Position numbers and translations under genes: made by a program. DNA of 47,918 nucleotides from Anaeroplasmataceae bacterium (GTDB taxonomy: Bacteria; Bacillota_I; Bacilli_A; Acholeplasmatales; Anaeroplasmataceae), in contig JAIDZC010000028.1 in assembly GCA_029057785.1 (NCBI GenBank), positions 1-47,918 on the forward strand, written 5' to 3'. The notes beneath the pieces were generated by a model. That model was not told the origin of the DNA, made no database searches, and was given only the letters and a program-made list of their open reading frames with translations. Below, one piece after another: positions 459-5,637 of this stretch (positions are counted from its first letter, which is position 1; each line of letters starts with the position of its first letter).

Positions 459-3400
459 ATGGACATGATAAAATTCTTAATTACATGGGGACCAACATTT
501 TTATTTATTTTCACAGTCTTATGTGGAATTTTAGTTGGTTGTATCCGTGGCTTTAGAAAGAGTTTAATTTTGTTTATTCATATGTTGGCAGCTGGTGTGA
601 TTTGCTTAATTGTGTACTTATGTATAGTTAATAATCCTAATCTAGATGCAAATATGGTTAATTTTATAAATGGTATATTAGGAAAATTTGGAACTAGTTT
701 ACAAGATATTATGTCAGTAAATAAAGACTATCTAACATTACATGAGATGCTGATGCAGAAAATTGTTGATGGTATGACTGATAAACAATCTATACAGTAT
801 TGGTTTATAGTAGAAAATGCTGCTTATATTAATACTTTAGTAGATATGGCATATCATCTAGTTGTTGCAATTCTATGCTATATTTTATATGGATTCTTAC
901 TATTCTTCTTATATATAATTTATTTAATTGCATACCCTTTAAGAAGAAAAATTAGAAAAGAGAATAAGAAGTATCAAAATGGAGAAGTAAATCATCCATA
1001 TAAGCGAAGAAGACTTTTAGGAAGTTTGATTGGTGGAGTGAGAGCTACATTTACTGCAATTATTTGTTTTTCTTTTTTAGGAAGTTTAATATATATTGTT
1101 ACAGGTGGAACTAATCTTCCTCAAAGAGATCAACTAAAGGAAGAACAGACAGTTGATTTTGAAAATACAGGATGGAATGAAGCATATGACTATTATAGTT
1201 ATGTATGCGCTATGGGAAATACAGGAATCTTCCAAGTACTAAATTCAATAAAGGATACAAGCCACACCCCATTTTATTTTTACTTTGCAGATATTGTTTT
1301 ACAAGGTAGATTGAATGATGAAAATCTTGGTGTTGAAAATGAAAAGTTTTATTTAAGAGATGAAGTGGGTGAATATGTTCATTTCATAAATAGCACCTTA
1401 GCTTTAATGCTGAAATATGGCAATCCAAGTGATATAGAGGATTTAGTTTCTGGAAATGCTGATTCTGACCGTCAGATGAAGATTTTAATCTCTACAATGG
1501 GGGATGAAGGATTTGCAGAAGAATTTTCTAAGTTGATTGATGAGTTTGACGGAAAAACCTTTATGTCAAATTTATGTTTGTCAGCTTTGACTACTTTAGT
1601 AAATCATATTGATAAGGTTGTGTCTGATGAGAAAATTATTGGTCTTGTAAATCAATTATTTAAAGGAGAAGATGGAATAAAGGTAACAGATTTAGCAACT
1701 GAGGCTGATATGAAGAATCTATTTAAAGGCCTAGTTCAAGTGGTTGCAGAAGTGAATGCTGCTCAGAACGAGGTTTCTACAATGTCAGAGAATTCAAGTG
1801 AAGAAGACTCCAAACCAGAAGCAACTGAGCTTGTCTCTACTAAGCAAATGATTTTAATTGCTAAAAACTTTATTCCTACAATTCAAGAATTGTCATTATT
1901 TCAAACAAGAACAGATATAGGGAATAAAGTGATTGCAGGCCTATATACATATGCTTCAACCTCTTTGACTGAAGAACCGATAGATTTCGATATTCCTGAT
2001 GATATTGATTGGATTAAAGAATTTAACATCTTATTAAATGCCTGTGATCCATTACTTACTATTGCGTATGAAGTTTATGATAAAGACAATAATAAGCTGA
2101 TTGAAAATCTTGCTTACCTATTTGAAAGAGAGAATGCAGATGATATGGAAGCTGCATTTGATGAACTGGCTCTCCAATTAGAATCTTCTTTGGTATTAGA
2201 TGTGGTTTTTAAATCTTCTCTAGTGGGAAAAGAAATCGATAAAGTTATATTGAATATTACAAAGGATGAAACAGTTACAATTCCTAAAAACATTGACTAT
2301 GTTGGTAAAGAAGGAGAATGCAGTATCCTTCTTTCTTCAGTAAAAATGCTTCTTAAAAATGGCGGAGGTTCTGTACTGATTGCTATGATGAATTCTGGAG
2401 GGAAAATTGAGTCAGAGCAAATCAGAAAAATGCTAGAAGTTTTGGCTAAGGAAGTTACCATTGAGGGAAAAACTACAACACTGATTAAAAATATTACAGA
2501 GTCTAAGTTAGTATATTATATGTTATCTACTTATTTAACATATGCTGATTTTGGTGGCAGTGGATTTAAACTATATTTACCAGAATCAGTAATGGAAGAT
2601 ATTGAAGGATGTAAAATTATTAAACGTAGTGAAATTGAAATTGTTACTGATCTATTATCTAATTGTACTGATTTAATTGTAGAGGTTATGGATCATCCTG
2701 ATGATTTAGATTATGCTCATATCTTCTCTAATGATTATATCGATATGAAACTCAAAGAGTCATTATTATTACAAGGTACTCTTGCAAATGTTATTATTGG
2801 AGTTTCCTCTTCACAACAACAGATTATTTTACCTGTAACCTACGATCAGCCTGAAAGCTGGATTAATGAGGATGGAAACGGAGAAATATGTATTCTTCTT
2901 GATGCTATTCACGACCTTTCGCATGTAACAATAGAAGAAGAAAAATATTTGATAAACGAATTACTCAACGGAAATATTAATCCTTCTGATCTTCTCAATT
3001 TAGATAAGGAATTATTAGATCAAATTTGTTCTTCTAAGGTTTTGAGATATACTATAAGTGATATGATTACAGATTTAAATGGGTTTGAGATTGTGGTGGC
3101 AAGAGCTTCATTGGAAGAAGTGAATGCTCAAACCACTACAGATAAGCTTGTAAATGTCATTCAGGCAAGTGAGCTTAGTGATATTTTTGTTGACATTCAA
3201 AGAATTGTTTTCTTTGATGAAGCAAAAGAAATGAAAATAAATTATAACGCTATTTTTGAAAATAAAGCAGAGTTAAGTAAGAGTAAAACGATTACGGCTA
3301 CATTGATTCAATTAATGATGGATAAAAATGAGGAAGGATTCCTAGTTATACCAGAACCATATCAAATCGATTTTGAGAAATTTAAAACAGACTTTGATTT

Positions 3401-5600
3401 AACTGGTAATATATGGCTTGGCACCTCAGAGGATACTTCTGATGATGAAATCTTCTTAATGCTAAAAGCTGTAGAAACCTTTATTGATAAAGATGAAAAC
3501 GGAAAAATTCCATCCGAATTTAATTTTGAAACTTTACAGGATGATTTGAAATTAAGAGAAAATGGAATAGATGATATTTGTGCTTCAGCAATATTAAACG
3601 CATCCTTAAGCAATAAAATCACCCAAATTTTCCATGTTCCTACAGAGCTTTACAAGAATAATCTCGTTGAACAAAAAGATTTAAATGATTTATTTAAAGC
3701 TATATTCAAACTATTTAATCGAACTGAGATAGTTGTAAAAGAATTAGATGATGATCTATTTGATTTGACATTTAGAGCTGATGCAACGCCAATCATTTTA
3801 AACTCTGTTATTCTTCGTAGTACAATTACAAATAAGATCTCTCGATTGCCACAAATTTATGTACCATTGACCTCTGCTACAGCTTCTGATTTCATTGATA
3901 AAGAATCTGGTTATATTATAAGCAAGGAAGAACTTACTGATCTATTTGAAGCTATGTTTAAGCTTTTAGAATCTGATGTGATTATGGTCAATGATTTAGA
4001 TAATCAACTTACAAGCTTAAAGATTAAGAAAGAAGCAATTCCTTATATCACGAAATCTAATATTTTAAATGCTACCGTATCTTCTAAGTTGTCTGAAAAT
4101 GATCAAATAGTCATTTTAGAACAATATGCTGTAAGAGAACAAATGTTAAATGATATGATTCTTCATGATATTAATTCAAATGAATTGGCTAATCTTTTGA
4201 ATTTGATGTTTATTATTTTAGGGGAAGATACGATTGCTGTTGATGACATCAGTAATGAATTTAATGATTTAACTATAGCTAAAAAGGATATAGCGTTATT
4301 ACTTAATTCGAACATCATTACTGCAACCATTTCTCATAAACTAGTTGAGATGAATGAGTTATCTATTCCTAGTAGTCAAGCAACAGAAGAATTATCAATT
4401 CATAATCAAAAAGAGTATTTCATTGATAAAACAGAAATCCAAAATCTATTATCTGCATTATTTGTTTTATTTGATACAGAGCGTTTGGAAATGATGAATT
4501 TGAATTCAAATTTAGGAAATATTGAACTTACAGCTTCCAAGGTAGATTCAATTTTAGAATCACAAATTCTTCAATTAACACTATCAGATAAGTTTGTTAC
4601 AGTTCAAGATTTAGTGATTCCACATATTGTAATACGTTCGGTGGATACTTTGAAAAACGAAACAAAGGATCAAATTGATAAGGTAGAACTTAAAGCATTC
4701 TTTGCTGCAATCTTTGCAACAACAGAAAACTCAATAAATGCAAGTCAATTTGAACTTAGCCATTTGACTTTACCAAACACTAAGGAAGAGTCTGATATAA
4801 TGACTGAGTCTATTATCGTATCTGCTACACTATCAAATAAGATTATGGTGGATACCTCCTCTATTTGTATCATTGATGAGCTTAAAGATTTTTATACTTA
4901 TCAAAGTCAAATCTCAACCGAAAAGTATATTGTTCAAGAGGAGTTATCAAATCTATTACTAGCTTTAACTGTAGGAATTGGTTTGAATGACCCTACAAAT
5001 TTAAGCTTTAATGATATTGCTATCCCTACAACTGCAGAGGCAAAACAAGCTTTAGTAAATAGTGAAATTATAAGAACTACAATATCTCAAAAGGTTCTAG
5101 ACCAAGATACGGTTAATATAGGTCAAGATAGTGCCAATTTAGATACATCAAAGCATTATAATGAAGATTCTGTTGGAATTCTTAGTAAAGTGGAAATATT
5201 GAATATCATTAGGGGTATTGAACTTCTAAATCCTGATAATGGTAGCTTTGATCATCTTGTTTTAGATGTTGGAGAGATTTTGAAGATGTCAAATAAGGAA
5301 ATTGTTTTAAAAGCAATTTCAGAATCTGATGTCTACCTATATATTATTTCTCAAACATTAGGAGAAGATAAGGATTTAGGGTTAAAGGCTTATCAATGGT
5401 TTACAACAACATCTAGAACGGTAAATATTGATGGAGTGGAGTATGAATATCAATCTAGTTATATACCAGGAAGATATAATATTAACTATCCATCAGTTTC
5501 AAAAGATGTGTATACATCCTTTAGATTGTCACAGGATTCTAAAATTGTGTGTGATAGAATAGATATTCTGGCTCTAGAGTATACTATACAATCAAATTAA
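459..5600 (+). CDS. Giant membrane-anchored protein: CvpA-like domain plus about 12 degenerate repeats
   Basis: The product has 1713 residues; the ATG follows GGAGGAGGTG. Residues 1-217 contain four hydrophobic helices (about 7-29, 36-57, 128-160, 187-213). The GxxxGxxRGFRKSL motif after helix 1 and the RLLGSLIGGVRA motif before helix 4 look like the CvpA/colicin V production family, which normally ends near 160-220 residues. Here about 1500 hydrophilic residues follow. They hold a repeated unit of about 85 residues, with the pattern S-x-I-L-x-[AT]-T-[IL]-S-x-K, at about residues 682, 767, 858, 942, 1043, 1117, 1201, 1284, 1368, 1449, 1534 and 1620. Each is preceded by a [KE]-x-E-L-x-x-L-L-x-A-x-F helix. 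No catalytic motif is visible. Which side of the membrane the repeats lie on is not decided by sequence. The gene is monocistronic, between a promoter and a terminator. The CvpA assignment is moderately sure; the function is unknown. Confidence 0.85.
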   Translation: MDMIKFLITWGPTFLFIFTVLCGILVGCIRGFRKSLILFIHMLAAGVICLIVYLCIVNNPNLDANMVNFINGILGKFGTSLQDIMSVNKDYLTLHEMLMQKIVDGMTDKQSIQYWFIVENAAYINTLVDMAYHLVVAILCYILYGFLLFFLYIIYLIAYPLRRKIRKENKKYQNGEVNHPYKRRRLLGSLIGGVRATFTAIICFSFLGSLIYIVTGGTNLPQRDQLKEEQTVDFENTGWNEAYDYYSYVCAMGNTGIFQVLNSIKDTSHTPFYFYFADIVLQGRLNDENLGVENEKFYLRDEVGEYVHFINSTLALMLKYGNPSDIEDLVSGNADSDRQMKILISTMGDEGFAEEFSKLIDEFDGKTFMSNLCLSALTTLVNHIDKVVSDEKIIGLVNQLFKGEDGIKVTDLATEADMKNLFKGLVQVVAEVNAAQNEVSTMSENSSEEDSKPEATELVSTKQMILIAKNFIPTIQELSLFQTRTDIGNKVIAGLYTYASTSLTEEPIDFDIPDDIDWIKEFNILLNACDPLLTIAYEVYDKDNNKLIENLAYLFERENADDMEAAFDELALQLESSLVLDVVFKSSLVGKEIDKVILNITKDETVTIPKNIDYVGKEGECSILLSSVKMLLKNGGGSVLIAMMNSGGKIESEQIRKMLEVLAKEVTIEGKTTTLIKNITESKLVYYMLSTYLTYADFGGSGFKLYLPESVMEDIEGCKIIKRSEIEIVTDLLSNCTDLIVEVMDHPDDLDYAHIFSNDYIDMKLKESLLLQGTLANVIIGVSSSQQQIILPVTYDQPESWINEDGNGEICILLDAIHDLSHVTIEEEKYLINELLNGNINPSDLLNLDKELLDQICSSKVLRYTISDMITDLNGFEIVVARASLEEVNAQTTTDKLVNVIQASELSDIFVDIQRIVFFDEAKEMKINYNAIFENKAELSKSKTITATLIQLMMDKNEEGFLVIPEPYQIDFEKFKTDFDLTGNIWLGTSEDTSDDEIFLMLKAVETFIDKDENGKIPSEFNFETLQDDLKLRENGIDDICASAILNASLSNKITQIFHVPTELYKNNLVEQKDLNDLFKAIFKLFNRTEIVVKELDDDLFDLTFRADATPIILNSVILRSTITNKISRLPQIYVPLTSATASDFIDKESGYIISKEELTDLFEAMFKLLESDVIMVNDLDNQLTSLKIKKEAIPYITKSNILNATVSSKLSENDQIVILEQYAVREQMLNDMILHDINSNELANLLNLMFIILGEDTIAVDDISNEFNDLTIAKKDIALLLNSNIITATISHKLVEMNELSIPSSQATEELSIHNQKEYFIDKTEIQNLLSALFVLFDTERLEMMNLNSNLGNIELTASKVDSILESQILQLTLSDKFVTVQDLVIPHIVIRSVDTLKNETKDQIDKVELKAFFAAIFATTENSINASQFELSHLTLPNTKEESDIMTESIIVSATLSNKIMVDTSSICIIDELKDFYTYQSQISTEKYIVQEELSNLLLALTVGIGLNDPTNLSFNDIAIPTTAEAKQALVNSEIIRTTISQKVLDQDTVNIGQDSANLDTSKHYNEDSVGILSKVEILNIIRGIELLNPDNGSFDHLVLDVGEILKMSNKEIVLKAISESDVYLYIISQTLGEDKDLGLKAYQWFTTTSRTVNIDGVEYEYQSSYIPGRYNINYPSVSKDVYTSFRLSQDSKIVCDRIDILALEYTIQSN

Positions 5601-5612
5601 ATTTAAGAAATT

Positions 5613-5637
5613 AGGCAGGATTTTCCTGCCTTTTTTT
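5613..5637 (+). terminator. Rho-independent terminator after the CvpA-like gene
   Basis: The stem AGGCAGGA (5613-5620) pairs with TCCTGCCT (5624-5631) around a TTT loop, and the T-run reaches 5637. Confidence 0.9.

Follow-up and report, generated by a model that had tools for sequence, protein, structure and literature searches.

A giant protein combining a CvpA-like membrane domain with a variable number of small repeated domains in Anaeroplasmataceae and related bacteria

What could be the role of a protein of 1713 residues, among the largest of an uncultured, mollicute-related bacterium, that begins like a CvpA protein and continues as a long series of repeats? Its gene lies at positions 459-5600 (+ strand) of the window, i.e. 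the whole stretch of 47,918 nucleotides of Anaeroplasmataceae DNA analyzed here, and this reading frame was confirmed by ORF calling. A putative ribosome-binding site (GGAGGAGGTG, 444-453, + strand) ends 5 bases before the ATG at 459. Terminator-like hairpins, found by consensus scan only and given no strand, lie upstream of the gene (131-157) and just past its stop codon (5613-5631); both fit a single-gene unit, and the contig starts 458 bases ahead of the gene. An operon with the downstream nrdD/nrdG genes was considered and rejected, given the terminator at 5613-5631, a gap of 315 bases and neighbors that differ among relatives. In outline, the preliminary description is retained: a CvpA-type four-helix module is joined to a long series of small repeated domains, in a monocistronic setting.

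The gene is conserved and under purifying selection, which excludes an artefact. Two orthologues are 82% and 95% identical at the protein level, and the named records carrying the gene are an uncultured Mollicutes MAG (L002) and an Anaeroplasmataceae MAG (L003). Compared with the L002 orthologue (82% protein identity), the overall dN/dS ratio is 0.12, rising from 0.07 in residues 1-216 and 0.08 in residues about 217-591 to 0.13 in the repeats and 0.35 in the C-terminal cap. In L003, an in-frame TGA (28-30) near the contig edge corresponds to a cysteine codon of the source gene and is probably a sequencing or assembly error.

The first 216 residues (459-1106, + strand) form the CvpA-like domain, with four transmembrane (TM) segments in hydropathy profiles. 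In alignment A1, G27, G31, G188 and G192 are invariant, and R33 and K34 nearly so. The Pfam family Colicin_V (PF02674) gives 6.6 bits with the source protein and 10.5 bits with its first 234 residues, below the cut-off of 29.3. It is nevertheless the commonest Pfam match among members (9 of 43), matches three relatives directly in a six-frame search and reaches 27.2 bits, for the same cut-off, over residues 17-197 of a protein fragment from the best relative (L150). Furthermore, hhalign aligned the family N-terminus with a profile of ordinary CvpA proteins from the same genomes over 176 columns that include all four segments (E 2e-6), and an independent profile built from distant giants gave E 2.5e-5 against CvpA; reversed, column-shuffled and partner-protein profiles, used as controls, gave probabilities of 3 or less. 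From these profile comparisons, we conclude that the N-terminus is a remote homologue of CvpA without formal membership of PF02674. The CvpA N-terminus announced previously thus stands as a distant relationship but not as a Pfam assignment. A sub-threshold match to DUF4400 (E 0.0017) over TM sequence, seen in just three of 43 members, was rejected.

Hydropathy of the source protein reveals no TM segment beyond residue 216, and orthologues agree except for isolated marginal segments. The loops 24-38 (+3) and 160-190 (+9 net) are basic, and the region after residue 220 is acidic (121 K+R versus 251 D+E). According to the positive-inside rule, the two basic loops and the four TM segments would place the repeats outside the cell. 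Between anchor and repeats, residues 217-591 (1107-2231, + strand) constitute a conserved region, predicted to be extracytoplasmic, that belongs to no Pfam family. At the other end, a short and fast-evolving cap (residues 1633-1713; 5355-5597, + strand) contains no large head domain; in 64 intact members, the stretch after the last unit has a median length of 80 residues. Searches of Pfam and NCBIfam with the whole protein and its N-terminus, and of Pfam with the middle part and the repeat consensus, gave nothing above cut-off. Hence, no enzymatic, transport, ligand-binding or adhesive domain was recognized by these searches, and Pfam returned no trypsin-like protease domain after the TM bundle.

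The array itself occupies residues 592-1632 (2232-5354, + strand) and comprises 12 degenerate units of about 84 residues placed end to end. The motif S-x-I-L-x-[AT]-T-[IL]-S-x-K, on which the repeats had initially been recognized, is present, but its strict form occurs just twice and its degenerate form eight times. Since shuffled sequences yield 2.3 occurrences on average, and up to 8, at the same threshold, the literal motif alone is too weak as a proof; motif counting was rejected as evidence and profiles were used instead. Self-alignment does detect the repeats: comparison of segments with the whole protein by hhalign gives an 84-residue period (probability 95-98), and a self-comparison profile of seven orthologous rows displays a strict 84-residue period at about residues 1011-1420, with weaker copies on either side. 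An HMM built from five seed units and then iterated across the family tiled all 12 units on the + strand. The first two are weak (2232-2531, iE 0.02; 2559-2789, iE 0.04). They are followed by unit 3 (2808-3062, iE 3e-11), unit 4 (3078-3311, iE 1e-3), unit 5 (3342-3617, iE 5e-8), unit 6 (3624-3836, iE 2e-11), unit 7 (3837-4088, iE 1e-18), unit 8 (4089-4340, iE 2e-14), unit 9 (4341-4592, iE 8e-19), unit 10 (4593-4841, iE 3e-16), unit 11 (4845-5093, iE 1e-14) and unit 12 (5094-5354, iE 1e-8). The earlier count of about 12 repeats in about 1500 residues is therefore kept, but the array starts nearer residue 592 than residue 682.

A profile made from the source protein's own units has 11 matches in the ORF 459-5600 and none elsewhere in its genome, and the unit is likewise confined to the giant gene in the other searched genomes of the genus. 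In 22 distant members, the repeat HMM found 195 units at iE < 0.01 in the region after residue 600, and none in reversed and three block-shuffled versions of the same sequences. The units of the source protein are indeed degenerate, with a mean identity of 24% and a maximum of 35%, and are therefore old. In several relatives, adjacent units are 90-98% identical (for instance 98% in L106, 94% in L190 and 92% in L192), so duplication of units is still going on. The arrays of L189, L191 and L196, as well as those of these three loci, contain units that match a direct or alternate neighbor at up to 98% identity, which points to very recent duplication of single or double units. The number of units varies among orthologues, a point that the preliminary description had proposed to check: the repeat HMM counts 4 to 26 in full-length orthologues and 8 to 14 in those of the same genus, and across the class relatives range from about four units to 26 or more.

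The natural unit, whose bounds were judged from the variable position of the linker, runs from I-x-K-x-E-L-x-x-L-L-x-A through S-x-I-L-x-A-T-I-S-x-K to h-x-I-P and spans about 73 residues, to which a linker of about 11 is added. Unit 8 was modeled with its upstream hairpin (4080-4376) by AlphaFold, using 31 rows from the source protein, L002 and L003. The best model (pLDDT 74.0, pTM 0.64; 55-66 pLDDT for the four others) tentatively gives the unit a beta-hairpin and four helices. A model of three units reached a pLDDT of 41.6 and was discarded. The solenoid proposed earlier is thus not borne out, the single-unit model looking like a compact small domain. Fold searches with this model found no solved structure alike in the PDB (Foldseek, VIA-align) and no match among viral models (Foldseek), the best E values being 2.1 and 1.1, respectively; the unit also matched none of the Pfam and PDB sequence families, which does not prove that its fold is new. 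An EF-hand-like identity, raised by weak PDB-profile matches (calbindin, E 0.045) to the I-x-x-x-E-L stretch, was rejected as single stretches fail on their own.

How widespread is this architecture? The giant gene is found in 46 of the 55 genomes of the family, and the N-terminal profile detects it in every one of the five families of the order (104 of 160 genomes); the matches head ORFs of mostly 1000-4461 residues, and the same repeats are present in nearly all the ORFs examined. In a sample drawn evenly from the class, 104 of 296 genomes gave a match, in ORFs of up to 6056 residues; six matches in short ORFs were set aside, leaving 98 giant-bearing genomes. The survey covers one class, to which all the genomes listed in the phylum sample also belong. 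No giant was found in viral contigs. The most extreme ORFs encode 6056, at least 4461, at least 4167, 3890 and 3689 residues (G268:C7, G141:C20, G143:C24, G030:C72 and G038:C1, respectively), in genomes of 1.3-2.2 Mb. In family f24, two CvpA-headed giant genes are often close to each other on one contig (G259:C43, G253:C1, G265:C1, G388:C4 and G400:C184). In family f3, a protein of about 990 residues is often encoded upstream of the giant (L184, L189, L192, L193, L194 and L197); it looks like a DNA polymerase III alpha subunit and probably reflects conserved synteny.

A second membrane protein accompanies the giant in many genomes. This partner of about 400 residues (about 350-530; alignment A3, with L039:11665-12855 and L040:4477-5709 among others) has an N-terminal TM segment, a middle part of about 300 residues, a second TM segment and a charged tail, and belongs to no Pfam family. 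It is encoded at most three genes from the giant in 23 of the 39 loci with downstream sequence from the family and one neighboring family, and is present in 49 of the 55 genomes of the family, including all 31 of best quality. In the source genome, the partner is unlinked (G000:C18:26970-28151), and within the genus of the source it is mostly not adjacent to the giant. It is hardly detectable outside the family, in which it represents a nearly universal membrane protein family without description. From this gene arrangement and co-occurrence, a functional link with the giant is plausible, and the two proteins might be in physical contact.

We consider the giant to be, with a probability of roughly 0.55, a membrane-anchored surface stalk or coat protein of variable length, built from a CvpA-like anchor and, in the source, about 12 small domains. 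The four-helix bundle would fix the chain to the cytoplasmic membrane, its two short basic loops facing the cytoplasm. Past the fourth helix, the chain would exit the cell and continue as the conserved 370-residue region, then as a string of about 12 small alpha/beta domains separated by variable linkers and closed by the short cap. Its length would be tuned in evolution by gain and loss of whole units. The result would probably be a long, acidic and fibrous surface layer or spacer, likely acting with the two-TM partner. The stalk shape and the coat or spacer role are suggestions, and the extended shape in particular is advanced with caution because the one-unit model is modest (pLDDT 74, others 55-66) and the three-unit model failed. 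A structural role, already suggested in the preliminary description, would follow from this arrangement, whereas its envelope-spanning version finds no support, the data suggesting a stalk that is extracytoplasmic and rooted in one membrane.

Two other explanations, both doubtful at about the same level, deserve consideration. First, the giant could be a fibrillar adhesin of the periscope type, whose repeats form a variable-length stalk presenting a binding head to host or neighboring cells. The tandem units do vary in number and include recent duplications, as in periscope proteins (PMC8201768), the array is membrane-anchored, and the cap evolves fastest (dN/dS 0.35). However, with a median of 80 residues past the last unit, most intact members lack a sizeable distal head, and the most conserved extracytoplasmic part (217-591) adjoins the membrane. 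Moreover, most units are ancient and have diverged (24% identity in the source), unlike the near-identical repeats that define periscope proteins, and near-universal presence would be unusual for an adhesin.

Second, the CvpA-like part and the partner could form a membrane complex in which the array serves as a scaffold or conduit for wall precursors, lipids or nutrients. Since ordinary CvpA is required for bile-salt resistance in enteric bacteria (PMC6705877), a role in envelope maintenance is a serious rival. It would account for the strong constraint on the CvpA-like part (dN/dS 0.07) and on region 217-591 (0.08), and for a partner that is linked in 23 of 39 loci and present in all 31 high-quality genomes of the family; a housekeeping role in the envelope would likewise agree with the class-wide spread and the strong purifying selection. 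Conversely, no enzymatic or transport domain was recognized, an array ranging from 4 to 26 units is hard to fit to a precise machine, and the partner is hardly detected outside the family.

It is quite improbable that the repeats face the cytoplasm as an internal scaffold or skeleton on the membrane. This arrangement is compatible with a low cysteine content and with the absence of a classical signal peptide, the outside location being deduced from hydropathy and charge. However, a cytoplasmic array would put the loops 24-38 (+3) and 160-190 (+9 net) on the outside, against the positive-inside rule, and MarP, with an equal number of helices, has its C-terminal domain outside (PMC4992679). Finally, chance similarity, by which hydrophobic helices would be taken for CvpA and low-complexity sequence for repeats, could draw on the Pfam score (6.6 of 29.3 bits) and the weak literal motif but is scarcely credible for the anchor and refuted for the repeats, as controls fail to reproduce either signal and both parts are kept together in independent lineages.

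Is the giant a mark of lineages that lack a cell wall? The source genome keeps one FtsW/RodA-type gene. Among the giant-bearing genomes of the class sample, such a gene is present in 30 and absent from 68, and 101 genomes have the gene without the giant. These counts correspond to a negative association that is mild (odds ratio 0.42, p 0.001, ignoring phylogeny). The idea that the giant marks wall-less lineages only was rejected, as the source and 30 of the 98 giant-bearing genomes have an FtsW/RodA-type gene. Within the family, the genus of the source (g1) keeps one FtsW/RodA-type gene and the sampled genomes of another genus (g4) have none; from this gene content, loss of wall synthesis may be recent or partial in the family. 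A more speculative and rather unlikely extension would be a class-wide, near-core surface layer in which an all-stalk giant and its partner form an outer coat, with a thickness set by the number of units, as an alternative envelope organization in a mollicute-related branch where many members have reduced wall-synthesis genes or none.

No account of CvpA-headed repeat giants came up when we searched the open literature, in line with the preliminary description, to which no such architecture was known. Proteins built as long repeat stalks are known as such; to our knowledge, the novelty lies in the anchor, in the repeat family and in a near-core occurrence across the class. If the proposed reading is true, an N-terminal CvpA-like bundle that replaces a sortase or S-layer signal would represent a new way for bacteria to anchor long repeat proteins, and the repeat domain would be one that is absent from Pfam and has no fold match in the PDB. 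Furthermore, the giant is among the largest and most conserved unannotated proteins of the class, many of whose members are known from metagenomes only. The poorly understood CvpA family would also gain a context in which topology and anchor role are directly testable.

Several known systems resemble the giant in part. It shares with the CvpA/Colicin V production family (PF02674) the N-terminal four-TM domain and a G-x(2,3)-[KR]-G-[FL]-x-K motif after the first helix. However, ordinary CvpA has about 245 residues, whereas the giant scores below the Pfam cut-off, carries about 1500 further residues and, with its 1713 residues, lies far outside the 160-250 residues of short stand-alone CvpA; an ordinary CvpA of about 245 residues is encoded by a separate gene in the source genome and in all 11 genomes of the same genus. 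The helices of the mycobacterial membrane serine protease MarP (Rv3671c) belong to the CvpA family. As proposed for the giant, four N-terminal TM helices of MarP are followed by, and anchor, an extracytoplasmic C-terminal part (PMC4992679), which makes MarP a precedent for this topology, but this part is a single protease domain, whereas the giant has a conserved region and a repeat array, and no protease.

Periscope proteins such as SasG, Rib and Sgo_0707 are surface proteins with tandem small domains in variable number and highly identical repeats (PMC8201768). The giant has such tandem domains in variable number and, presumably, the surface location. Periscope proteins are, however, wall- or surface-anchored and carry a distal functional domain, whereas the giant has an N-terminal, membrane-embedded anchor, mostly divergent units and no sizeable distal domain in view. 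Similarly, it is long, multidomain and presumably stalk-like, as are fibrillar adhesins, which are long, filamentous, multidomain surface proteins with stalk domains; according to the part of the catalog drawn on here, about half of them have no known anchor (PMC8286594). It differs from them in having no known adhesive or stalk Pfam domain, and a CvpA-like anchor is not mentioned among theirs in that part of the catalog (PMC8286594). Thus, although set apart from periscope proteins and fibrillar adhesins by the absence of an apparent distal head, the giant may work in the same way as these proteins.
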